Assembly (NCBI RefSeq): GCF_026619415.1 | Contig: NZ_JAOVZR010000003.1 | Coordinates: forward strand, 124,001 to 188,000 | Direction: 5' to 3' | Length of the DNA stretch: 64,000 nucleotides | DNA from: Hoeflea algicola | GTDB lineage: Bacteria; Pseudomonadota; Alphaproteobacteria; Rhizobiales; Rhizobiaceae | Part shown: piece by piece, positions 1,661 to 16,433 of the stretch | Numbering within the stretch: position 1 is the stretch's first letter | Layout: every line of letters begins with the position of its first letter | Notes under the pieces: model-generated | Seen by the model: the letters and a program-made list of their open reading frames with translations, nothing else | The model's database searches: none | What the model was told of the DNA's origin: nothing | Program-made: the position numbers and the translations under genes

Positions 1661-1661
1661 A
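1645..1661 (+). promoter_or_regulatory. Direct repeats GCACTAA at the start of the regulator gene
   Basis: GCACTAA occurs at 1645-1651 and again at 1655-1661, a period of 10 bp or one helical turn. The second copy runs into the ATG of the MerR-like gene. Same-face repeats overlapping a regulator's own start are typical autoregulatory operators; that role is inferred from position only. Confidence 0.3.
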
Positions 1662-2137
1662 TGCAGTATACTCAGAGCCAGATTCGCGAATTGATTTCCA
1701 TTTCAGTGGATGCTTTTCGCACATGGCGGAATGCTATTCCGGCACTGAGCCTACACAAAGGGCATGCCCCTAGCTTCACGCCGGGGGACGTTGTCGCGAT
1801 AGCGATAGTCGCCGAACTTGTCAGACATTTCGGCGTACGCGTCGGAACGGTCGGGGATCGTTTCGATCTGCTGTTCAAGGAGTGCCGGGGAAAGTCTTGG
1901 CGCTCGCTTGAAAGCTGCGTCGCTTTGATCGAAATCGACAATTTCCGCCTTGTCGACGCAAGTGTAGCCCACCGCTGTTCGCCGGACGCCTCAAGCCTCT
2001 GCGTGCCGTGCGCGCCAATAATAGCACGACTACGCTCGGCCCTCACTGCGACTGAAGTCGACCAAGAGCAGGGCCATCTGCAGTTTCCCCCCACCTCAGT
2101 GGCTGTGCAGCCGGAACGGCGCGAGAAGCGAGCATGA
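1661..2137 (+). CDS. MerR-like helix-turn-helix regulator of the defence operon
   Basis: A 158-residue protein whose first 60 residues resemble a MerR-type winged helix: YTQSQIRELISISVDAFRTW, a loop with HAPSFTPGDV, then a helix AIAIVAELVRHFGV. The remainder is unassigned and has five cysteines (one near residue 71, one near 86, three near 106-119), so a metal- or redox-sensing role is possible but unproven. Its stop overlaps the methylase start (ATGA, 2134-2137), indicating translational coupling and a shared transcript. Regulators in front of methylase-containing defence operons commonly delay nuclease expression until the DNA is methylated; this is the likely job here, by context. Confidence 0.6.
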   Translation: MQYTQSQIRELISISVDAFRTWRNAIPALSLHKGHAPSFTPGDVVAIAIVAELVRHFGVRVGTVGDRFDLLFKECRGKSWRSLESCVALIEIDNFRLVDASVAHRCSPDASSLCVPCAPIIARLRSALTATEVDQEQGHLQFPPTSVAVQPERREKRA

Positions 2138-5100
2138 CCCCCACTCTGGCATCCGCATTGGCGCCAGAGTGGAAAGACCGCTTGGGGCTCACACATCGGC
2201 GCTCGCCTGAACTCTACGAGTCGGCCGAGGCCGTCAGCGACGTGCCGCACGCAGCGGCTATCCGAGCCGCCCTCAATGAAATGGGTCTATCGGCGATCTT
2301 CTGCGTCCAGGGCGTCCCGACGGTCGCGATCCTGGAAGCCGATCACTACGACCGCGCCGCTATTACTGATCTTCACGGCGCACTCTGGAATCAGGGCCTG
2401 GCCAGCCTGTTGCTGGTTATCGCCGACGATACGCTCAGAGCGTTTTCGCTCGCCCGTACTCCGTTGAGCGATCCAGGCGACGCCTTCGAGACCCGCTGCC
2501 TCATCGATAGCCTCAGCCTGACGACCGAAGCGCTGCGGTTTCAGAACCTTATCTACGGCGCAGAATCCGGGCGTCTCTGGAAGGATTACGGTGAGTATTT
2601 TCCCCCGAAAGAACGCATCGATCAGGTTCTCCTCGACAATCTGAATGCGTCCCATGACCTCCTGCAAAAGACCGCGCTCGCTCCCGATGCGGCCCAGGCC
2701 CTGCTCATACAGGCGATGTTTATCGCCTACCTTGAGGACCGGGAGATCGTAACGCCCACCTACTTTGCCGCCGTTTCCGAGAAGAGCGCGGAGAGTTTTT
2801 CGGCGCTGCTGGAAACCGGCGACGTTAATCTCTTCCGGTCCCTCTTCCGGACCCTCCACGCGGATTTCAACGGCGATCTGTTCGTCGCGCCGTGCTCCTT
2901 CGAGGCCACGGGCGAGGCGCCAGAAGTCACGCCTGCGCATCTGGCGATCTTGGCGCGGTTCCGGTCAGGCCGTGAAGAAATGGCGTGTTCCGGACAGCAG
3001 CGGTTCTGGGGCTATGACTTCCGCTATATCCCGATCGAGCTCGTCAGCGCCGTCTACGATCGGTTCCTGGGTGAACGCGAGACCGAACGCCGCGCCAACG
3101 GTGCTTACTACACGCCCATGTTCCTCGCCGACACCGTCGTTTCCCAAGCGTGGGAGATGTTGCCGGATGCGACAAAGACGACAGGGAACTTCCTCGACCC
3201 TGCCTGCGGTTCAGGCGTTTTCCTCGTCCGCTCGTTCCAGCGGCTATGCGAACACTGGCGCGCCAAGCACAAGACGCAGTCGATTTCCTGGAAAACGCTG
3301 CTGTCCTTGCTCAGCCAAATCCATGGCTGGGACTTGAATGGCGGCGCCGTTCGGGTTGCCGTGTTTTCGCTCTACATCGCCTTGCTCGAAGAGGTGTCGC
3401 CACGCGACATCCGCAAGCTCATCACTCGCGGGAAATTCCTCCCGGAACTTTGGGGCAAGAACCTCGTCTGCTGCGACTTCTTCGAAGTGTCACCTGACGG
3501 CGCCCGATACGAGGTTATCATCGGCAATCCGCCATGGACCAGCCGCCGCGGTCCGGCCCGTTCGTCTGTGCAGTGGAGCAAAAAAAACGGCCATCCCATG
3601 CCCGGTGGCGAGGACGCCTGGGCATTCAGCTGGAAAGCGCTGTCGCATCTCGCCGACGGCGGACTGATCGCGTTCCTGCTGCCGGCGATGGGATTTTTGC
3701 ATAACCACGCCCAAAAGACGGTCGAAGCGCGTGATGCGTTCTTCCGGAAATCCCAAGTCCGCCGCGTCATCAACTTCGCCGACCTTCGCTTTCAGCTTTT
3801 CGAGAAAGCCCATCGCCCGACAGCTCTGATCATCTACGGCAGCGCGAATGCGGGTAATTTCCCGTATCGCTTCGACTACTGGGCGCCGAAGGCCGACCTC
3901 AACCTGCGCATCAAGCGTGTCATCACGCTGAGCAGCGCGGACAAGGCCTCGCTCGGGGTAGGCGCGGTTCTCGATAACCCGCTCATCTTCAAGCAGCGCC
4001 TTTGGATGCGCGAACCGGACGCCAAACTGTTCGGCTACCTCGCACGGCTTCCCAAGCTACAGGCCTTCGTCAATGATTTTGGCGGCCTAAGCCGTCGCCG
4101 CGAAGAGCCGGGCAATCGCTGGGTGATCGGGCAAGGCTATCAGCCCTTCAATGAAGACAGCGATAGCGATGCGCCTCCACTCGAAAGCGCGTATGTCGGC
4201 CGGCTGCCGGACCTACCCATTGCGGCCTACTCACGCCTAGCCCAAACTGTGGAAGGCTTAATACCGGCCGCATCGTCGACGGTTCGTCGTCGCGGGTTCG
4301 AGGCCGGGTTCGATGGCTCGCGGATCCTTATTCCGCGTGGGGTCGAGACGTCGCAGAACCGTCTTCGCGCCGCCTATTGCGATCGACCTCTGACCTTCCA
4401 GCATATCTTCCAGGCGATCGTGGTGCCGGAGGGCGAGAGCGACCGTGCCAAGCTCCTGACCGCGATACTCAATAGTCGCATAGCGGTTTGGTATGCTTTT
4501 CACGGCACCGCTTCGTTCGGGTCGGATCGACCCGAAGTCCAGCAAGCCGACCTGCTACGATTGCCATTTCCATCACCCGACGATGTCCCCGATCACGCCG
4601 CAGCCGCCCAAGCCGCGCTGAAGCTGATCGCAATTGTGGACGACGCACGCGAACGCTCCAACGAGCCTTTCTCGATGCAGGTCGGCGACGGCGAGATCCT
4701 GCGGACAATCGACCGACTCTCGTACCAATACTTCTGCCTGTCGCCCGATGAAATCGCGCTGATCGACGATACCGTTGAGGCGATCCTTCCTGCCCTTCAG
4801 CCCCATGAGGGCCATTTCCCGAAACTCTGGCGCGCGCCTGACGAACCGCAACGCGCTCAATACGCGCACACATTGTCGGCCAGCCTCTCGGTCTGGTTCA
4901 AAGGCAAAAAGATCGATGCGCGCCTTGTCGCGCGCGGCGCTGACCTGGCGATCCTTCGCCTTCAGCTGGGCGGCCATGAAGACTATGCCGAAGATGCGGC
5001 CGGCGAGCTCAGCGACGTACTCGAGCAACTTGCAGCCCACATCCACAGGCCCCTCGACGGCAACTTCCAGCTCATGCCGGATCTGCGCGTTTTCGTCGGT

Positions 5101-5232
5101 GACTGCCTCTACCTCATCAAGCCTATGCAGATGCGCTTCTGGCTGCGCTCCACGGCGCTCGCCGATGCGGATGGAATAGCGCTCGACCTCCAGCAAGCTG
5201 CCGCCGCGCCGCAACAGCGGGGCGCGGAGTGA
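2134..5232 (+). CDS. Eco57I-class N6-adenine DNA methyltransferase
   Basis: A 1032-residue protein with a gamma-type adenine methylase core: SAM-binding motif I (FLDPACGSGVFLV, near residues 352-364) and catalytic NPPW at residues 465-468. Roughly 300 residues precede motif I, and a long target-recognition-like region follows the catalytic motif. The N-terminal part has ILEADHYDRAAITDLHGALW and LLLVIADDTLRAFSL, seen in large single-chain type IIG or BREX-like methylases; I did not find a convincing nuclease motif in it. It likely marks host or plasmid DNA as self. It is flanked by a coupled regulator (ATGA) and a coupled nuclease-like gene (TGATG at 5230-5234). Whether it also cleaves DNA cannot be judged from the sequence. 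Confidence 0.8.
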   Translation: MTPTLASALAPEWKDRLGLTHRRSPELYESAEAVSDVPHAAAIRAALNEMGLSAIFCVQGVPTVAILEADHYDRAAITDLHGALWNQGLASLLLVIADDTLRAFSLARTPLSDPGDAFETRCLIDSLSLTTEALRFQNLIYGAESGRLWKDYGEYFPPKERIDQVLLDNLNASHDLLQKTALAPDAAQALLIQAMFIAYLEDREIVTPTYFAAVSEKSAESFSALLETGDVNLFRSLFRTLHADFNGDLFVAPCSFEATGEAPEVTPAHLAILARFRSGREEMACSGQQRFWGYDFRYIPIELVSAVYDRFLGERETERRANGAYYTPMFLADTVVSQAWEMLPDATKTTGNFLDPACGSGVFLVRSFQRLCEHWRAKHKTQSISWKTLLSLLSQIHGWDLNGGAVRVAVFSLYIALLEEVSPRDIRKLITRGKFLPELWGKNLVCCDFFEVSPDGARYEVIIGNPPWTSRRGPARSSVQWSKKNGHPMPGGEDAWAFSWKALSHLADGGLIAFLLPAMGFLHNHAQKTVEARDAFFRKSQVRRVINFADLRFQLFEKAHRPTALIIYGSANAGNFPYRFDYWAPKADLNLRIKRVITLSSADKASLGVGAVLDNPLIFKQRLWMREPDAKLFGYLARLPKLQAFVNDFGGLSRRREEPGNRWVIGQGYQPFNEDSDSDAPPLESAYVGRLPDLPIAAYSRLAQTVEGLIPAASSTVRRRGFEAGFDGSRILIPRGVETSQNRLRAAYCDRPLTFQHIFQAIVVPEGESDRAKLLTAILNSRIAVWYAFHGTASFGSDRPEVQQADLLRLPFPSPDDVPDHAAAAQAALKLIAIVDDARERSNEPFSMQVGDGEILRTIDRLSYQYFCLSPDEIALIDDTVEAILPALQPHEGHFPKLWRAPDEPQRAQYAHTLSASLSVWFKGKKIDARLVARGADLAILRLQLGGHEDYAEDAAGELSDVLEQLAAHIHRPLDGNFQLMPDLRVFVGDCLYLIKPMQMRFWLRSTALADADGIALDLQQAAAAPQQRGAE

Positions 5233-5885
5233 TGCTGATCGGTGATGTGCAGGGATGGGTCGACAACTTCGTTTCGTTTGACGACCGCTTCCTCGAGAGG
5301 ATCGCGGCAGCGTGGCCAGAGTGCATGGCGGTTCTTCCCGAACAGCCAGGGGAAGATGACATCACCATCAACCTCGTCGATCGCCTCGCCAAGGACGTTG
5401 TGGTGCGTCGGTTATGCCATTGGGTCGAGTATCAGTTCGAGCCGTTCGGCCTAGCGGCTGACGGGTCGAAATACAGCAAGGGCATCATCGACATCGCCGT
5501 ACTCTTCGACTGGGATCGGGAGAGATACCTGGCTTATGAGTGCAAGCGGCTCAACGTGATCAACGGCGGAAGCCGCAGTTCCCTGGCCACCGTGTACGTC
5601 ACACAAGGCATGATGCGTTTTCTCACCGAGCAGTATGCCGAGCAGCTGCCTGTGGGGTGCATGCTCGGTTACGTGCTCGACGGCGACGTGCCCTTTGCCA
5701 ATTCACGGATTGCCGACGTCATCGGCAGCCATGTCCCTCTCGCCCTCGCTGAGGGGCCTACACCCCTTGCCGCGATCGAAGCGATCGAGCGCTTCCACAC
5801 AAGGCACACCCGCCAAACCGGATCACAGATCGAACTTCGCCACGCGCTATTTTCGAAGCCGTCAGCGGTCGCGACAAACGCTTGA
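5232..5885 (+). CDS. PD-(D/E)XK-like nuclease subunit of the defence operon
   Basis: A 217-residue protein (GTG at 5229 is an alternative start) whose start overlaps the methylase stop. The centre reads GIIDIAVLFDW followed by YLAYECKRLN: a hydrophobic strand carrying D87, then E103-x-K105. This is the D...E-x-K pattern of PD-(D/E)XK nucleases, with the hydrophobic strands expected around it. I infer an endonuclease or DNA-binding partner of the methylase. No family name is recognised. The next gene starts 152 bases downstream, so it could be read from the same or a separate promoter. Alternative: a structural subunit with a dead nuclease fold. Confidence 0.55.
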   Translation: MLIGDVQGWVDNFVSFDDRFLERIAAAWPECMAVLPEQPGEDDITINLVDRLAKDVVVRRLCHWVEYQFEPFGLAADGSKYSKGIIDIAVLFDWDRERYLAYECKRLNVINGGSRSSLATVYVTQGMMRFLTEQYAEQLPVGCMLGYVLDGDVPFANSRIADVIGSHVPLALAEGPTPLAAIEAIERFHTRHTRQTGSQIELRHALFSKPSAVATNA

Positions 5886-7701
5886 GGAAGGCGTGCTTAG
5901 GGGCCTCTCGATTCTTGAAGCTTCAGCGCGCCTTGTACTGATCGATGAAGTATAAGAGACGAAATCATGGAAGGCCGCGACTGCCAATCAAGGGAAACTT
6001 GACGCGATCGGCCACCAATAACGGGAGGTCGGCTAAAATGTTTATTGAGCGGCTCAGTCTGACGAATTTCCGTTGCTTCGGACCAGTTGCGACAAGCGTC
6101 GATCTAACCTCCGGCCTCACCACCTTTGTCGGCGTCAACGGCGCGGGCAAGACCGCCCTGATGCAGGCCCTGCAGCGCCTCTTCGGCGTGACGGGCGATC
6201 AGCGACGACTGCGGCGTCAGGATTTTCACGTCCCTTCCACCGAGCTTGTTGCGCCACCCCAGAGACACTTCGTCTTAGAGGCAATGATCGCCTTTCCAGA
6301 ACTAGACGCCGACGGCGCCGGTGGCGCGGCAATTCCGGAATTCTTCCATCAGATGGCCGCTGAAGAGGCGGGCAAGCTGAAATGTCGCCTGCGTCTCGAA
6401 GCGACCTGGACCGATGACGGTTCGCTCGATGGTGCGATTGAACAGAAATACTGGGCGATCCGGACTTTCGGGGCGTTCACCGACCCTGATTGCACCGAGT
6501 TGAAAGCCCCCGACCGGGCGCGGATCCAAATGATCTACGTTCCAGCGACGCGGGACGGCGCCTCCCAGGTGACGGCCTTTCTGCGCGGCAGGCTGTGGCG
6601 CGCCATCAACTGGTCGCAGGAGTCCGCGACACGTTCACAAACGCCGGCGCCGCCTTGAACGGCGCTTTCGCCGGGGAGCCGGCCGTCGATGTGATTTCCG
6701 CAGCGGTGACGCGGCGGTGGCAGGAAGTGTACACAGCCGGGACCGACACGACGCCGCTCTTCCGCCCGCTCGATCTGCGTTTTGAGCATTTCATCCGGAA
6801 GGTAGAGGTGGTCTTCCGCCCCGACGAGGTCGGCCGGGAGCGAGCCCTTGATGATCTGAGCGACGGCCAGAGGTCGCTCTTCCATTTGGCGATGACCGCA
6901 GCGACACTGGACGTTGAAGCCGGGATCGTCGCCGATCCTGCTGGAGCCGGTTTCCAGGCTGGCGGCGTACCGTTACCGGCGCTCACGCTCATCGCGATCG
7001 AAGAGCCCGAGAACAATCTCGCTCCCTTCTATCTCTCCCGCATCGTTCGGCAGATACAGGACCTGACGAAGTCGCCGCAGGCGCAGGCCGTAGTCTCCAG
7101 CCATTCCCCGAGCATCCTCGCCCGGGTTGATCCGACGCAGGTCCGGCACTTCCGGCTCGATCCGCACGATCGAACGGCCCGAATCCGCCCGATCAACCTC
7201 CCCGTCGGCGAGGAAGAGGCATCGAAATTCATTCGCGAGGCCGTGCGGACCTATCCCGAACTCTATTTCGCGCGCTTCGTCGTGCTGGGAGAAGGTGCGT
7301 CCGAGGAGGTCGTTCTTCCCCGTCTCGCCGAGGCGATGGGGCTCGACATCGATCGATCCTTTGTCGCGGTCGTTCCGCTGGGCGGTCGGCATGTGAACCA
7401 CCTCTGGCGACTGCTGACCGATCTCGACATCCCCTACGCCACCTTGCTGGATCTCGACTGGGGACGTTCTGGGGGTGGGTGGGGACGTATCAAAACGGCC
7501 TGCACGCAACTGCTCGCAAACAACGTCACGCCACAGGCCATCTTCGGACAGCATCTCAACCCCCAAGGGCCAGCCGCCAATCTGGCGGCTTTCGATGCTC
7601 TGCCTGTTGATTTCCACCCAGAAGTGACCCGGATTTTCCATCGAGAACTGACCCACCTTTAGGTTATGTTTCGTGGGTCAGGCTTTGGTCAAGGCATTAG
7701 T

Positions 7702-8472
7702 TTACTCCTTGGTTTTCCCCGCAGCTGCGGCCGAACTGGCCTTGAAGCGGAAGCTGTCGTTTCCGGTCTCCAGGATGTGGCAGCGGTGAGTGAGCCGATC
7801 GAGCAGCGCGGTTGTCATCTTTGCATCACCGAAGACCGTGGCCCATTCGCTGAAGCTCAGGTTCGTGGTGATGACGACGCTGGTGCGTTCGTAAAGCTTG
7901 CTCAGCAAATGGAAGAGTAATGCGCCGCCTGACGCGCTGAATGGCAGATAGCCAAGCTCGTCCAGGATCACGAGATCGAGGCGGGTGAGGCTTTCGGCAA
8001 GCTGTCCGGCTTTGCCTTTTGCCTTCTCCTGTTCGAGCGCGTTGACGAGCTCAATAGTCGAGAAGAAGCGGACCTTGCGGCGGTGATGTTCGACGGCCTG
8101 CACGCCAAGGGCTGTCGCGACATGCGTTTTGCCAGTCCCGGGGCCGCCGATCAGCACGACGTTCTGTGCGCCGTCCGTGAACTCGACGCGATGAAGTTGG
8201 CGCACCGTGGCCTCGTTGATCTCACTGGCCGCGAAGTTGAAGCCGGACAGATCTTTATAAGCCGGGAAGCGGGCAGCCTTCATGTGGTAGGCAATGGACC
8301 GGACCTCCCGCTCAGCCACTTCGGCCTTCAGCAACTGGGTGAGCATTGGCACCGCGGCATCAAATGCCGGTGCGCCTTGTTCCATGAGGTCGGTGACGGC
8401 CTGGGCCATCCCATGCATCTTCAGACTTCGCAGCATGATGATAATGGCACCGCTGGCGGGATCATGACGCAT
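7702..8472 (-). CDS. istB: IS21 helper ATPase IstB
   Basis: DnaA/AAA-type ATPase that assists IstA in choosing targets and assembling the transposition complex. Walker A is [11 protein letters not shown], Walker [13 protein letters not shown], and the sensor region [12 protein letters not shown] is present; the family's usual C-terminal RCHILE motif follows. The start is set at ATG 8472, which overlaps the istA stop by 11 bases (ATGCGTCATGA), the normal translational coupling of IS21. The reading frame stays open upstream to 8547, but that part lies inside istA. 256 residues is close to the usual size. Confidence 0.95.
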
Positions 8473-9994
8473 GGCGGCCTCCGGCGGTCCGGGCCCGCAG
8501 GCCATCATAGCGTTCGACATTGGCCTTTGGCTCACGGCGCAGAGCAAGGGCCTGTGGGGTGTCGATGTCGGGCGCGCCGATCGTCTTTCCGTCGATCAGA
8601 CGATGCAGAAGGTTCAGCACGTGAGTTTTGGTTGCGACCCCCTCAGCCAGCGCCATTTCCACGGCGACCAGCACGGCCTGTTCATCGTGATGCAGAACCA
8701 GCGCCAAGATGTCGACCATCTCCCTGTCACCGCCAGGTTTGCGCAGCATGAGATCTTGCAGCTGTTTGAATGCCGGAGGGAATTCGGCAAAGGGGGCACC
8801 GTTCCTCAATGCGCCGGGCTTGCGCTGAAGGACGGCCAAGTAGTGGTGCCAGTCGTAAATCGTGCGTGGTGGGAGTTGATGACTGCGCTGGATCACGCGC
8901 GTATGCTCACACAGGATCTGTCCTTCGGCGGCAACTACCAGCCTGTCCGGATAGACGCGCAGACTGACAGGGCGGTTCGCAAATGACGCCGGGACGCTGT
9001 AGCGATTGCGCTCAAAGCTGATCAGGCAGGTCGGGGACACCCGCTTGCTCAGTTCGACGAAGCCATCGAAGGCAGGGGGCAATGGCATCAGCGCGGCTTG
9101 TTCTGCGACCCAGACGTCGGCAACGCTGCCCGGCAGCGCTGCATGCGGAATCTCAGTCCACAGCGCGACACAGCGCTGTTCCAGCCAGTCATTCAGTGCT
9201 GCGAGATCAGGAAAGCTCGGCATGAGTTGCCATAGACGATGTCGGGCGTCCTGCACGTTCTTCTCGACCTGTCCCTTCTCCCAGCCGGCAGCGGGATTGC
9301 AGAACGCGGCCTCGAATAAGTAGTGGTTTGCCATCGCAAGGAACCGCATGTTGACCTGTCGGTCCTTCCCGCGACCGACGCGGTCAACCGCGGTGCGCAT
9401 GTTGTCGTAGATGCCGCGCTCCGGGACACCGCCGAAGACCCTGAACCCGTGCCAGTGGGCATCAAACAGCATCTCATGGGTTTGCAGCAGATACGCCCGG
9501 ACCAGAAAGGCCCGGCTGTGCGACAGCTTGATGTGGGCAACTTGCAGCTTGGTGCGTTCGCCGCCGAGAACTGCAAAATCCTCGCTCCAGTCAAACTGGA
9601 ACGCCTCGCCCGGACGAAACAACAGGGGGACGAAGGTGCCGCGGCCTGTCGTCTGCTGATCTCGCTGCCGATCGGCCCGCCAGTCACGTGCAAAAGCCGC
9701 AACCCGATTGTAGGACCCGTCAAAGCCGAGAACCACCAGATCGGCATGCATTTGCTTCAGCGTCAGCCGCTGTTTGCGAGACTTCCCCGCCTCCGTCTTC
9801 AGCCAGCCGGCCAGCTTCTCGGCGAACGGATCGAGCTTGCTTTGCCGCTCTGGCGTCGCGAACAGAGGCTCGATCATGCCCGAGTTCAAATACTTCTTGA
9901 TGGTGTTGCGCGACATTCCGGTCCGCCGCGCAATCTCGCGCAGAGGCAACTTCTCTCGCAAAGCCATACGTCGGATGATGTTCAAAAGTCCCAT
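8462..9994 (-). CDS. istA: IS21 transposase IstA
   Basis: DDE-type transposase of IS21. The N-terminus has a helix-turn-helix ([19 protein letters not shown]), followed by an RNase H-like catalytic core with [12 protein letters not shown] (first Asp), then [13 protein letters not shown] (second Asp) and a later acidic region around [17 protein letters not shown] (Glu). The start is ATG 9994 after a GGAG site; an upstream in-frame extension to 10054 lacks family similarity. Intact at 510 residues, so the element may still be active. Confidence 0.95.
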
Positions 9995-10516
9995 GTGTAT
10001 CACTCCAATGTCCCCCGTTGCGCATGGCGCAGGGGGAAGGGTCACATGGGTCAATTCTCAATGGAAATTAGGCCGCTACCCGGGTCACTTCTGGGTGGAA
10101 ATCAACACTCTGCCGATCGAGGACACTGCGAATATCACAAACTGGATGAATTGGCTGCGCCAGTTCAATGTCTTTTTCTGCACGCCCCTCGACCTCGACT
10201 ACTCGATGCTGAAGGCTCTCCCGCTCGCCTATCAGATCGTCGAACCCGGCCGCCAGGGGCCCTCGCCTGCAGGAGAGCCGCGCACGGCGGTTCTCGGCGA
10301 CGACGGTCTGCCTCACCTGTACGCTGCCGACCATGACGGTTTGATGCGCTGGTATCGGTATCTATTCCTGGGGCGCGGCAAGCCCAGCACCCACGTTCGG
10401 GTGTTGAGTGCACAAGATCCGGCTGCCCTCGCAGCCACCGCTCCCGAAGAACTGCGCGCACTCCTGACCTCAATTGTCGCTCGTCTCACCCCGCCGCCTC
10501 CTGCGGGTGCCTGATC

Positions 10517-12400
10517 ATGCGCCTTATTCGGCCAGAGGACTGGCGCCCGAGCGGCATTAACGATCTCGAACCGGTGGCGTGGAATGCCCTGCGCCACGCC
10601 GGCTCGGCGTGTGTGGTCGCAGGCCCCGGCGCCGGCAAGACCGAGTTTCTGGCCCAGCGCGCCGTCTATTTGCTTGAGACGGGCCTCTGCCGAGCGCCGC
10701 ACCGCGTGCTGGCGATTTCGTTCAAAACAGATGCAGCCAACAATCTCGGGTCGCGCGTCCGCCAGCGGTGCCCGCCAGAGTTCGCCAACCGGTTCGTGTC
10801 GGTCACCTTCGACGCCTTCACCAAGAGCCTCGTCGACCGCTTTCTCAACGCCATCCCCGCCGACTGGCGCCCGACCCGGCCCTACGAAATCTCCTTCCCA
10901 AAGCGCAAGGCGATAGAGGGCTTCCTCACCCTCGCCCGGCTCAGTGCGCCGCCGGAATGGCAGGCGGAAATCGCCGGCTACAGCGCGAGCGACTTTGAAC
11001 CCAAGATCGTCGGTAGCTATCGGCTGCCCATGGGACCTATCGCGCCCCAGAACGCCGCCGAGTTCGCCATCGCCCGCTGGTGGGCAACGCAACTACGGCC
11101 AGACCAGCCCTCTGCACTTACCTTCGTCGGCATCAACCGGCTCGCGGAGCTGCTGCTCCGGGCCAATCCCCACATCCGCCGGGCGCTCGTCGCCACCTAT
11201 CCCTTCGTGTTCGTCGACGAATTCCAGGACACGACCTACGCGCAGTACGACTTCCTGCATTCGGCGTTCTCTGGCGGGCAAACCATCATCACCGGCGTAG
11301 GTGACGACAAGCAGCGGATCATGGTCTTCGCCGGTGCGCGTCAGGACGCCTTTCAGCGGCTGCAGGCCGATTTCGGCGGAGCAAGGTTCCCCCTCCTTTT
11401 CAACTTCCGTTCCTCGCCGGACCTGGTCGCGATCCAGCACATCGTCGCGCGCGCTCTCGATCCGAACACCGTCCCCACGGTCGCTCAGACCGCCCGTCAG
11501 GTCGATGGCGACGTGGCTCAGGTTTGGTCCAGCCAGACCATTGCGGCGGAAGCCGCCCACCTGGCGCAATGGATCGCCAATGACATTGCCACCCGCGGCC
11601 GGGCACCGCGCGACTACGCGCTCCTAGTGAAACAGAAGTCCGATGATTATGAGCATGAACTCGCTGGAGCCTTCGCCGTTCATGGCCTGCGGATTCGCAA
11701 TGAGAGCCATACTCTCGGCAAAACCTCGCTTCAGGATTTGCTATCTGATGACCTGAGCCGGCTCGCGATTGCGGTCTTCCGCCTGGGCGCGACACGCCGC
11801 GCGCCGGCCGCATGGCAGCTGGTCTCGTCTTCTGTCCTGGCGTTGCGCGCTACTGGGCAAGACGATGATGCGCGCGCGGCCAAGGTCGAGGTGGAACTCA
11901 GCGCATTTCTCACTTCCTTACGCACCGACATGGCGGCCACCGCCCCGTCGCGGCAAAGTGCTCTCGATTTCGTCAGACGGGTTTTCGAGTATCTGGATCT
12001 CGGGGCGATCGCACGAACCTATGCCGAATATGGCGTTGGCGACATGCTTCAGATCATCCTTGAAGCTTTTTGCATCCACTTCTTCGCTTCCGCCGATGGC
12101 GCCCCGAACTGGATGGCCTGCCTAGATGCATTCGAGGGGGTCAATCAGATTCCGATGATGACCGTCCATAAGAGCAAGGGGCTCGAATACGACACCATCA
12201 TCTTCGTTGGCCTCGACGACCGTGCTTGGTGGGCCCACACCCCAGGCGACCCCGAAGGCGTCGCAGCGTTTTTCGTCGCCCTCTCGCGGGCGAAACAACG
12301 CGCCATCTTCGCCTTCTGCCAACAACGCGGACAGCGAAACAATGTGGCTGAACTCTATCAGCTTCTGACTGATGCGGGCGTGCCTGAGATTGCGATATGA
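10517..12400 (+). CDS. UvrD/Rep-like superfamily 1 helicase (GajB-like)
   Basis: A 627-residue SF1A helicase with all core motifs: Walker A (VAGPGAGKTEF, near residue 36), motif II (VFVDEFQDTTYAQYD, near 232), motif III (ITGVGDDKQRIMVFAGA), motif V (MTVHKSKGLEYDTIIF, near 547) and motif VI (ALSRAKQRAIF, near 590). GajB of Gabija is a UvrD-like protein, usually somewhat shorter, that works with the OLD nuclease GajA in phage defence. Here the gene begins 2 bases after the OLD gene, so the pair would be co-translated. The frame is intact, but the IS21 element upstream may be polar on its expression. A DNA-repair helicase is less likely given this neighbour. Confidence 0.85.
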   Translation: MRLIRPEDWRPSGINDLEPVAWNALRHAGSACVVAGPGAGKTEFLAQRAVYLLETGLCRAPHRVLAISFKTDAANNLGSRVRQRCPPEFANRFVSVTFDAFTKSLVDRFLNAIPADWRPTRPYEISFPKRKAIEGFLTLARLSAPPEWQAEIAGYSASDFEPKIVGSYRLPMGPIAPQNAAEFAIARWWATQLRPDQPSALTFVGINRLAELLLRANPHIRRALVATYPFVFVDEFQDTTYAQYDFLHSAFSGGQTIITGVGDDKQRIMVFAGARQDAFQRLQADFGGARFPLLFNFRSSPDLVAIQHIVARALDPNTVPTVAQTARQVDGDVAQVWSSQTIAAEAAHLAQWIANDIATRGRAPRDYALLVKQKSDDYEHELAGAFAVHGLRIRNESHTLGKTSLQDLLSDDLSRLAIAVFRLGATRRAPAAWQLVSSSVLALRATGQDDDARAAKVEVELSAFLTSLRTDMAATAPSRQSALDFVRRVFEYLDLGAIARTYAEYGVGDMLQIILEAFCIHFFASADGAPNWMACLDAFEGVNQIPMMTVHKSKGLEYDTIIFVGLDDRAWWAHTPGDPEGVAAFFVALSRAKQRAIFAFCQQRGQRNNVAELYQLLTDAGVPEIAI

Positions 12401-12870
12401 CTGGGGTAGATCTGGCCAAATAGTGCGCGTCAAGGCCAAGCTCGGGCCAGATGCTGGATTGCTGGCCGAAGGATGGTGGAAGAACGATGCGAAGTTACCC
12501 GCTATTCCGACGATGCTTCGCTGACACAGCCAACAAGTCGCCGGCAAATACCGCCGTATTCCCCACTAGCATCTTGGGATACAGTTTCGGCCTTTAACAG
12601 GCTCCCACAGTCTCTGCTTCCAGATGAAGGCAGACTTCGTCTCTACGATCGGCACGGACGCGGGCTGCTGCCAAAGCTCGTCGGACAGGTGGAGGGCAGC
12701 TCTCGTTGCGTAGCCACCCCATACGCGAGCCCGCTACGCGTGAAGGTGCGTGAGGGCGCAAAACAATCGTTAAATGAATCGGTCTTTGACGTCGACATCG
12801 GGCCGTGAGTGGCGGTTGGTCCGAAAAGTCCAAGGTCTCGAAGCCGATCACATGACCGCGTGATGGCAGG
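12401..12870. other. Non-coding stretch after the defence operon
   Basis: About 470 bases between two convergent genes. The forward frame at 12473-12808 has no ribosome site or protein-like composition and I do not call it. No hairpin followed by a T-run was found for either gene. Confidence 0.4.
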
Positions 12871-13770
12871 TTAGGATGCAATGCGCTCGGCACAGATTGC
12901 GGCGACAGCTTCCTGCAGCGCTCTAACATGGTCCAGCAGCCACGTGAGTTCCTCAACTGTGATTTCGTATGCAGGCGAATAGCGTGCATCGACATAGGCG
13001 CGATCGAGGCGAGCAAATGCGCGCTTTGCGAACTTGGTGTCATTCGGCCATACGCCTATCAACTGCGGTGCTATCCGCTCGGCCTGCGAGCGCAGGAACT
13101 TCAGTTTGTGAGATTTGGGGCTGTAGAGGGCCGTAACCAGAAGAACGCAGTGATACAACCGTTCTGCGGCCTGATGGAGCTGAAAGGCTGCTTCAGGCAG
13201 GTTTCCGCGCTCGGCAAGGAATGCGGAGGCGGCCTGAAAAGCACCAGCGCTCGGAAACCAGTGCTCGTAATACCGTCTTGCCTCCGCGCGCGCCTCGTCT
13301 GGCTCAAGCGATTTTGGCGACGCAAGGGGATAACCTTGCAGTTCACAAAGGACGATTCCGTCGCGGGCGATATCGATGAAGAAGGGGCGCCCCTGCGCGA
13401 GTTGCGAGTTCACCTCCTCATAGGTGTGAACGATGAAGTTTACGGGCGCAGTCACATGATGGGTGATCGCCAGTTCCTGCACAAAGCGTTCGCCCGCTTT
13501 CTCCCAGGCTTCATACTGATCGGCAAAATGACTGTAATTAACGATCACCAGTAGATCGTAATCCGACAGATAGCCACTTTTGCGGTCCTCTACCCAGTCC
13601 CCGCGGGCATAGGAGCCGAATAGGATGAGCTTGAGAATCCGTCCGCGCTTGCTCTTCTCGGACAGCTTGGTTTTCTGGACTTCTTCGAATTCATCGAACA
13701 ATATTGCGGCGACGCGCTGCAGTTCGCGCTGCTTGCGCTCTGGCAGGTGTGTCAGCCTGTCGATGTTCAT
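12871..13770 (-). CDS. MNT-HEPN fusion protein (nucleotidyltransferase plus HEPN domain)
   Basis: The N-terminal half is a minimal nucleotidyltransferase of the DNA polymerase beta fold: LFGSYARGDW with the GSxxRG signature, then SDYDLLVIV supplying the Asp-x-Asp metal ligands. The C-terminal half is a HEPN-type helical domain (AAFQLHQAAERLYHCVLL). In two-gene MNT/HEPN toxin-antitoxin systems the nucleotidyltransferase AMPylates and silences the HEPN RNase; a single fused chain would combine both. The start is ATG 13770, preceded by AAGGA at good spacing; ATG 13791 is an alternative. It sits next to the defence operon in opposite orientation, in keeping with a defence or addiction role. Sensing or antibiotic-modifying functions cannot be excluded. 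Confidence 0.75.
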   Translation of the reverse strand: MNIDRLTHLPERKQRELQRVAAILFDEFEEVQKTKLSEKSKRGRILKLILFGSYARGDWVEDRKSGYLSDYDLLVIVNYSHFADQYEAWEKAGERFVQELAITHHVTAPVNFIVHTYEEVNSQLAQGRPFFIDIARDGIVLCELQGYPLASPKSLEPDEARAEARRYYEHWFPSAGAFQAASAFLAERGNLPEAAFQLHQAAERLYHCVLLVTALYSPKSHKLKFLRSQAERIAPQLIGVWPNDTKFAKRAFARLDRAYVDARYSPAYEITVEELTWLLDHVRALQEAVAAICAERIAS

Positions 13771-13884
13771 CGAAAAGTCCTTCAAATCCAATTCGTCATA
13801 GAATCGCAGCCTTCGGGCGAATGCCGCTGGCTGTCCAGTCTTATCAGGATCACACGGTCGTGCGAAAGGCGCATGATCTCGTCC

Positions 13885-14937: not shown

Positions 14938-15609
14938 TTATTCGACACTCGCAAAAAGTGCGGTTGCCGACGCTGGAGGGATTGCACCATCAGCGAGAAC
15001 TGATGAACGAAAACTGCCCACCGCTCCAAGCCGTGACCGCATGGCATCACTCATATCGAACAGACCAGCATAGGTCATGGTCTTCCCGATCCGCACTGGC
15101 GTGCCCACTTGTTCGAAGCGGCAATCGATCGACCTGAAAATGCGAGCCATTCGGGCGTCGAAGACCGATACGATGTGTTCGATACCGGCCCGCTGGGCGG
15201 CTTCAACCATCCCGCACAAAAGCTCGACGGTGATTCGGTTGACCAGGTGGTTCGCTTCTGCACGATCCCTCGCCTCGAAGATCCGCGGATTGACCGCGAA
15301 TCGTGAGCTTTCCCAGATCAACGGGCTTTCGACCGTACCACCAGGCATCAGCACGGAAAATACGTCCCTGAGCATGTTGGGGCCAGTCGTGGGGAGCAGA
15401 CGTACAGCGCCACGGAGTTGTCCTGATCTCTCATCGAGCGACAGAAGGTAGAGAGGGGTTTCGGAATCGAACCGGTCGATCTCCCGGCCGTTTTCGACTG
15501 TGACGTCCCAGCCGAGGCGACCAGAAAAGACTTCGGCCCGCATACGAAACATTGCGTCAAATAGGTCGGGATACTTGTCCTGATCGGCACTTTCGATTGC
15601 GAATATCAT
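14938..15609 (-). CDS. traI: Acyl-homoserine-lactone synthase (LuxI/TraI family)
   Basis: Makes the diffusible AHL signal from S-adenosylmethionine and acyl-ACP. LuxI-family invariant positions are present: FRMRAEVFSGRLGWDV near residues 21-36, EIDRFD, GAVRLLPTTGPNML, and WESSRFAV, in the normal order. Length (223) is normal for a LuxI homologue. In Ti plasmids traI heads the trb operon; here it stands apart, downstream of a LuxR gene in the same direction, so it may be a second signalling pair rather than the canonical traI. An inverted repeat immediately upstream (15617-15645) is a candidate activator site, consistent with positive feedback. Confidence 0.93.
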   Translation of the reverse strand: MIFAIESADQDKYPDLFDAMFRMRAEVFSGRLGWDVTVENGREIDRFDSETPLYLLSLDERSGQLRGAVRLLPTTGPNMLRDVFSVLMPGGTVESPLIWESSRFAVNPRIFEARDRAEANHLVNRITVELLCGMVEAAQRAGIEHIVSVFDARMARIFRSIDCRFEQVGTPVRIGKTMTYAGLFDMSDAMRSRLGAVGSFRSSVLADGAIPPASATALFASVE

Positions 15610-15695: not shown

Positions 15696-16433
15696 TTACA
15701 AGGGATCGAAAAGCAGCCCGGCTCTATGAGCTATCGAAACCGCATGAGTATTGCTCGTGGCATGGAGCTTGTGGCGGGCGCTCTCCAGATAACAGCGCAC
15801 GGTGTGCTGCGAAAGGCCCAGAATGACAGCACATTCCCAGGCCGTCTTGCCCTCGGCGATCCATTGCAAGCATTCCAATTCACGCGGAGAAAGACTGACC
15901 GGTTCGTTCGCATGCCCCTTAATGCTGAGCACACGATCATGGATGTGCATCGCAAGGACCTGAAAGTCGCGCATATAGAGTAATTTCGCGCTCGCCCAGT
16001 CCCGGGCGGAAAGATCTGACGTCACGGAGAACAAGGCACGATCGCCGCGGCGGCCGTGCACCGGAACTGTCAGTCCGCGGCTCCCGATACCGAATTCGCC
16101 GGCTTCACCAAAAAAGGTCTTCAACCGCCCCGTAGGCTTTCCGAACTCGTCCCAATCAAGGGGAAGCATACGGTGAAATCCAAGACGAACAACAGGATCG
16201 ACATCGACATACTGCCGGTTCTTGTAGTGCGCGACCCACTCGGGAGGATAGGTTACGGCGAGGTAGGGATCGGTCTCATTTTGACCGGTAACGCTGACAC
16301 CAAAATAAGCAATGGTATTCAATGCGTATTGGGATGCCACGTCTTTCAAAAACCGGATAGTTGAATTCCGGTCAGCAACATCTGAAATTTTTGAGAGTGC
16401 GTCCATCAGATCGGAATCTGCGATATTCTCCAA
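15696..16433 (-). CDS. LuxR-family autoinducer-binding regulator, partner of the AHL synthase
   Basis: A 245-residue LuxR-type protein. The autoinducer-binding domain shows YPPEWVAHYKNRQYVDVDPVV (Trp, Tyr and Asp ligand contacts) and FGIGSRGLTVPVHG; the C-terminal helix-turn-helix reads LSPRELECLQWIAEGKTAWECA, then LGLSQHTVRCYL and AVSIAHRAGLL. It lies 86 bases upstream of the AHL synthase in the same direction and is the natural receptor for that signal. It differs clearly from the traR product at 512, so the plasmid carries two receptors and one visible synthase. A dyad at 16505-16520 upstream may be its control site. Confidence 0.9.
   Translation of the reverse strand: MENIADSDLMDALSKISDVADRNSTIRFLKDVASQYALNTIAYFGVSVTGQNETDPYLAVTYPPEWVAHYKNRQYVDVDPVVRLGFHRMLPLDWDEFGKPTGRLKTFFGEAGEFGIGSRGLTVPVHGRRGDRALFSVTSDLSARDWASAKLLYMRDFQVLAMHIHDRVLSIKGHANEPVSLSPRELECLQWIAEGKTAWECAVILGLSQHTVRCYLESARHKLHATSNTHAVSIAHRAGLLFDPL

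Follow-up and report, generated by a model that had tools for sequence, protein, structure and literature searches.

The five genes at positions 1661–12400 of the window (the whole stretch of 64,000 nucleotides that was analysed) belong to a block in which a small restriction–modification (R-M) module is joined to a Gabija pair. The linkage recurs in other hosts, the block has common edges and has spread between genomes, and a divergent R-M allele is found at the same joint. We lean towards reading the block as a composite mobile defence unit, in which a regulated R-M module precedes a Gabija pair; the pair retains its own leader and would serve as a second line of defence.

All of the genes of the block lie on the + strand, and the five genes and their order are as given in the initial annotation of this DNA. 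A MerR-type (CvkR-like) regulator, assigned from its predicted fold, occupies 1661–2137. It is followed by MT, an N6-adenine DNA methylase of 1032 amino acids (2134–5232; Pfam and PADLOC matches, with DPACGSG and NPPW motifs), and by NUC, a putative PD-(D/E)XK-like nuclease of 218 amino acids (5229–5885). The regulator and MT genes overlap by four bases, as do those of MT and NUC, and gajA and gajB are separated by two bases; both spacings had been described correctly. The gap between NUC and gajA measures 152 bases and contains a conserved gajA leader (5898–6037, + strand) with an inverted repeat at 5988–6002; the initial annotation mentions neither this gap nor the breaks in gajA described below. 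The last gene, gajB (10517–12400), is intact and encodes a UvrD-like helicase of 627 residues (UvrD-helicase, E = 3.7e-30), of which residues 1–626 are covered by the PADLOC GajB model PDLC00103 (727 bits). MT and gajB have the same lengths as in relatives. The best PADLOC models for the final two genes are GajA PDLC00090 and GajB PDLC00103, in agreement with the proposal that OLD plus UvrD here is the Gabija pair. The likeness to Gabija, whose GajA is a class 2 OLD nuclease, lies in GajA (an OLD-type ATPase with a TOPRIM domain) and GajB (UvrD-like), in their order and in the two-base spacing; the pair differs in standing behind an R-M module, in resembling the Gabija proteins of solved structure only weakly in sequence and in the broken state of gajA in the window.

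This gajA is disrupted at two points. The frame that opens at 6038 stops after 206 codons at 6658 owing to a frameshift near 6.62 kb (∼6620). The resulting 5′ piece (6038–6658, + strand; assigned from PDLC00090, E = 9.2e-66, and frame length) contains the ATPase part, and a middle piece (6620–7604, + strand, the start being approximate and taken from tblastn) contains the end of the ATPase and the TOPRIM domain (PDLC00090, E = 1.3e-132; OLD-like_TOPRIM, E = 5.6e-16). The middle piece is cut by an IS21-type element on the − strand at 7605–10107, which is foreign to the defence system, and the 3′ piece follows at 10108–10514 (+ strand; PDLC00090, E = 2.8e-32 on the containing frame). The element has inverted ends and a seven-base target duplication at 7598–7604 and 10108–10114, and it carries istA (8462–10054) and istB (7702–8547) on the − strand (IstB_IS21, E = 4.4e-76; Mu-transpos_C_2, E = 8.7e-16). 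In 12 of the 13 relatives compared gajA is 655–663 codons long. The exception, L011, is also broken: its gajA (8034–9998) is a second, independently interrupted copy with a frame that ends after 378 codons. Since Gabija calls for both genes to be intact, and the frameshift and the IS21-type element leave gajA in pieces, the window copy does not work as a system of five genes. Judging from the sequence, its Gabija function has very probably been lost, and the R-M half may still methylate and restrict.

Relatives were collected with a GajB scan of the genome collection, which returned 62 loci; GajB was located by tblastn in 59 of these, nine of them with weak matches. GajB is at least 84% identical in 18 loci, 17 of which include the upstream side. 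The regulator–MT–NUC module lies directly upstream in 13 of these 17: nine carry the window allele and four a second, divergent allele, and the other four have neither. Given how rare NUC is compared with how frequently it occurs upstream of close GajB, the linkage of the regulator, MT and NUC to GajAB is real and goes beyond chance. The same gene order is thus found in nine other loci (in L010 the contig end takes away the regulator and part of MT) and, with the second allele, in four more, and the two halves are not pairs that rarely or never occur together, the outcome that the initial annotation had named as evidence against its proposal. Identities between the second allele and the window are 30–35% for the regulator, 25–30% for MT and 38–40% for NUC, the last over a 63-residue stretch. 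That the two NUC alleles are related is judged from BLAST (E < 1e-4), a match to the NUC profile being circular because the second allele had been included in that profile. The window allele occurs in Oricola (MAG), Methyloversatilis (MAG), Novosphingobium, Labrenzia, a Sphingomonadales MAG, three Brevundimonas (one a MAG) and Ancylobacter, and the second allele in Aureimonas, Hoeflea, Paracoccus and Mesorhizobium. Methyloversatilis, a betaproteobacterium known here from a MAG, is the sole host outside the alphaproteobacteria. The 13 module-bearing loci are not independent: they represent at least two joinings (one per allele) and much common descent.

The edges of the block are common to all eight window-allele loci that are not cut upstream, with homology running from 1591–1660 to 12387–12405 (the IS21-type element excepted) between flanks that are mostly unrelated, which indicates that the block moves as a unit. 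The three Brevundimonas loci (L013, L014 and L018) have common flanks and count as one context. The position of the joint can be narrowed from both sides. In two stand-alone modules, L066 (Mameliella) and L094, homology to the window breaks off at 5861 and at 5885, where NUC ends, and it begins at 5925 in the second-allele loci and at 5898 in L012, a locus without R-M. The joint therefore falls no more than about 40 bases beyond the stop codon of NUC. Exchange at this joint is seen in L005 (Hoeflea, second allele) and L017 (Ancylobacter, window allele): the two match at 97% identity over the leader and GajAB and at 96% over another 3.7 kb of downstream flank, with ∼750 extra bases in L005 between, but carry different R-M alleles upstream of the joint. 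The intact GajA of L017 matches the GajA models.

In the GajB tree (56 rows) the two alleles are intermixed; the window allele requires seven changes, at least three of them forced by well supported branches, and the second allele four changes, of which only one is forced in this way. Distances in the R-M half correlate with those in gajB (r = 0.53 for nine loci, with 46 of 10 000 permutations as high; r = 0.72 for the seven loci that remain when L013 and L018 are omitted, with 155 of 10 000 as high). Edges, tree and distance correlation together indicate that the halves often move jointly and that the first half is sometimes replaced or lost. A Sulfitobacter plasmid has a GajB that is 87% identical and no module. 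By the queries used, GajAB stands without R-M in four of the 17 close loci and in 25 of the 28 more distant loci from the scan that have at least 6 kb upstream; `no R-M' here means no phmmer query match, supplemented in most loci by Pfam scans that covered between one and a few frames on the upstream side, so that other R-M types were possibly missed. In L012 and L030 the frames that precede gajA gave no Pfam match and appear non-coding by eye, and the NUC profile matched none of ten other upstream frames. As separate observations, L016 encodes an unmatched upstream protein of 330 residues that looks nuclease-like by eye, and L024 has a ResIII-type helicase upstream.

The gajA leader is common to loci of both R-M alleles and to L012. 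Its inverted repeat TCAAGGGAAACTTGA / TCAAGnGAAACTTGA at 5988–6002 recurs as an exact motif in the leaders of eight other loci, again with both alleles. A structured RNA leader was considered and rejected: RNAalifold gave seven pairs without a two-sided change, and the z-scores of eight leaders range from −3.18 to 0.67. In viral contigs the leader motif gave six matches, at which tblastn with the query proteins found nothing.

Upstream of the regulator, an imperfect palindrome GGGGTGCGCCCCG at 1611–1623 is followed by a conserved CCCGnATTGATnTG stretch. In altered forms the palindrome is kept ahead of the regulator gene in the 11 aligned promoters of the window allele, two of which belong to stand-alone modules, and together with the CCCGnATTGATnTG stretch it is a candidate operator/promoter of the R-M half. 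Its count in the window is not significant (two matches at one mismatch versus 1.34 expected), and a promoter and terminator scan showed no excess over shuffled sequences. The idea of one operator common to both halves was discarded, as the regulator palindrome was not seen in the gajA leader and the inverted repeat there is different. The regulator itself has no Pfam match; its predicted fold is a MerR winged helix and resembles that of CvkR, a MerR-type repressor of type V-K CRISPR-associated transposons. CvkR is only 14% identical to the window regulator, which differs in preceding an R-M module.

MT contains the SAM-binding and catalytic motifs of a type II R-M methylase (DPACGSG and NPPW) and matches N6_Mtase (E = 1.5e-14), Eco57I (E = 2e-10) and PADLOC REase_MTase_IIG (E = 5.8e-82); a sequence search of the PDB gave three weak methylase matches. 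It resembles type IIG enzymes in fitting the IIG model over its length, and the gene of the putative nuclease NUC overlaps its end. The block differs from type IIG enzymes in that its candidate nuclease is a separate protein without a Pfam match. Despite the full-length IIG match, no in-chain nuclease domain was recognized: an alignment of 14 MTs shows no conserved D..ExK in the N-terminal part. BREX and DISARM were likewise rejected, since core genes such as PglZ/BrxC or DrmA/DrmB are missing among the best 25 PADLOC matches per block protein, where only weak PglX and DrmMI matches occur, all of them on MT. NUC has no Pfam or PADLOC match, Foldseek gave no significant match in the PDB and the NUC profile found no PDB sequence. 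No HSDR_N domain was found in its own genome. The family comprises 977 proteins at E ≤ 0.001, and none of the 120 matches listed has a Pfam domain, making it a candidate for a new family model.

Counting its own genome each time, NUC is present in seven of 385 sampled genomes of the class, seven of 347 of the order and six of 398 of the phylum. MT adjoins NUC in all 15 other distinct genomes with NUC, and GajA or GajB adjoins it in none (about 10 kb on each side or to the contig end). Three plasmid records with NUC likewise show no GajAB within 9 kb by annotation and sequence. The MT–NUC pair is thus a stand-alone kind of R-M system, and its union with Gabija is a special case; the block reveals a two-gene R-M kind whose putative nuclease is missed by PADLOC. 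Viral contigs yielded one NUC locus, L111, with regulator, MT and NUC, cut ∼310 bases past NUC; GajB was found there in only two loci at 22–24% identity and the second NUC allele in none.

Other kinds of R-M genes also precede Gabija. In three of the 28 more distant loci type I R-M genes lie directly upstream on the same strand: L035 reads hsdM, hsdS, hsdR, YgjP-like, gajA, gajB; L048 reads N6 methylase, hsdS, hsdR, Mrr, HamA-like, gajA, gajB (the Mrr-type nuclease and HamA-like genes at 6215–7899); and L038 reads hsdS, unknown, hsdR, two unknown, gajA, gajB. In a separate sample GajA was found in nine of 398 genomes, its own included, and six of the other eight have at least 7 kb upstream. 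In one of these six, L105 (4275–6984), a SacI-type nuclease gene precedes gajA at a distance of 11 bases, and the opposite strand carries a C5 cytosine methylase gene. In another, L109 (1414–9435, − strand), gajA comes after two HsdM genes in succession and an HTH/M78 gene (PD-Lambda-2_B-like); its gajB is short (446 residues), and no hsdR was seen among the frames scanned. The remaining four gave no R-M query match, with Pfam scans of only three frames in two of them.

These results affect the two proposals of the initial annotation differently. The order across hosts, the edges, the swapped first half and the other R-M types before distant Gabija pairs give good support to two systems fused into a single cargo unit. 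That all five genes form one operon is right only in part: the conserved leader parts the halves, each half is also found alone and the local gajA is broken twice.

Restriction creates ends on unmarked DNA, and phages evade it through inhibitors or guarded ends. For the composite unit with Gabija as a second line, MT would mark the host DNA and NUC would cut unmarked DNA. GajAB would act on DNA ends that are unprocessed by the host RecBCD or AddAB, or when a phage blocks restriction, and Gabija would then await any phage that shields its cut ends or inhibits restriction. Swapping the first half would alter the DNA specificity and keep the second line constant. We infer this functional coupling of R-M and Gabija, and several reports are consistent with it. 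Gabija in P. aeruginosa is described as acting on DNA without RecBCD activity (PMC12407980; also PMC12904381); the former, a 2025 preprint, calls self/non-self discrimination by Gabija unknown and proposes ends that lack RecBCD activity. GajB is reported to be a sensor of DNA termini (PMC10822852, PMC10681800) and Ocr, a restriction inhibitor, to trigger Gabija (PMC10286901, PMC12255303). These published experiments concern distant proteins, to which the sequence match of the GajA piece is weak (E = 5e-4).

It is quite possible, if less probable, that the halves are two self-sufficient systems that are co-selected or co-transferred in a mobile block and act additively without interacting. Both halves occur alone, the gajA leader at the joint is conserved and is found in L012 as well, where there is no R-M, and defence genes often cluster. 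The separate occurrence of the halves and the separate leader of gajA keep this explanation strong; the recurrent joining of unrelated R-M types before Gabija and the narrow joint amount to more than mere proximity, yet are compatible with it. A tighter form of coupling, which we regard as unlikely, is that the R-M half is an exchangeable recognition module whose cuts on unmarked DNA, or whose inhibition by a phage, direct or release GajAB. If this were true, a module swap would re-target a constant effector and Gabija would follow a methylation-based self/non-self rule. It is improbable that methylation gates GajA directly, with MT marking the sites that GajA would nick and NUC being an accessory. 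GajA of B. cereus is reported to be sequence-specific (PMC8136825) and a methylase precedes GajAB in both alleles, but near-identical GajAB stand behind methylases that are 25–30% identical and expected to differ in target, and GajAB also occur without an adjoining methylase. Chance neighbourhood, with no conserved unit at all in a mobile region rich in genes, would fit the other mobile or defence-like genes nearby (IS21, HEPN–nucleotidyltransferase), but is contradicted by the conserved order and edges in different hosts and can hardly be entertained.

Second effectors beside methylation-based systems are already in print: OLD/TOPRIM backup effectors are reported with BREX (PMC12839542), and PrrC and PARIS as guards of R-M (PMC12707154). 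The block would be comparable in having a second effector next to a methylation-based system; it differs in combining a small R-M module, as its first part, with a complete Gabija pair as its second. We did not find the block described in the open-licence PMC literature, and an earlier mention of OLD–UvrD with R-M genes may exist. Because near-identical GajAB stand behind either of two R-M alleles that can replace each other, nature provides matched constructs for testing Gabija as a restriction backup.

Some neighbouring genes deserve mention. In L013, L014 and L018 a gene for a T4SS-DNA_transf conjugative coupling protein lies just upstream, so that the block adjoins transfer genes there. 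In the window, the block is directly followed by a gene on the − strand (12871–13791) for a single chain with a nucleotidyltransferase domain at the N terminus and a HEPN domain at the C terminus. A LuxR-type regulator gene (512–1300, + strand) closely precedes the block, and an autoinducer synthase and a further LuxR-type regulator are encoded downstream (14938–15609 and 15696–16433, both − strand).
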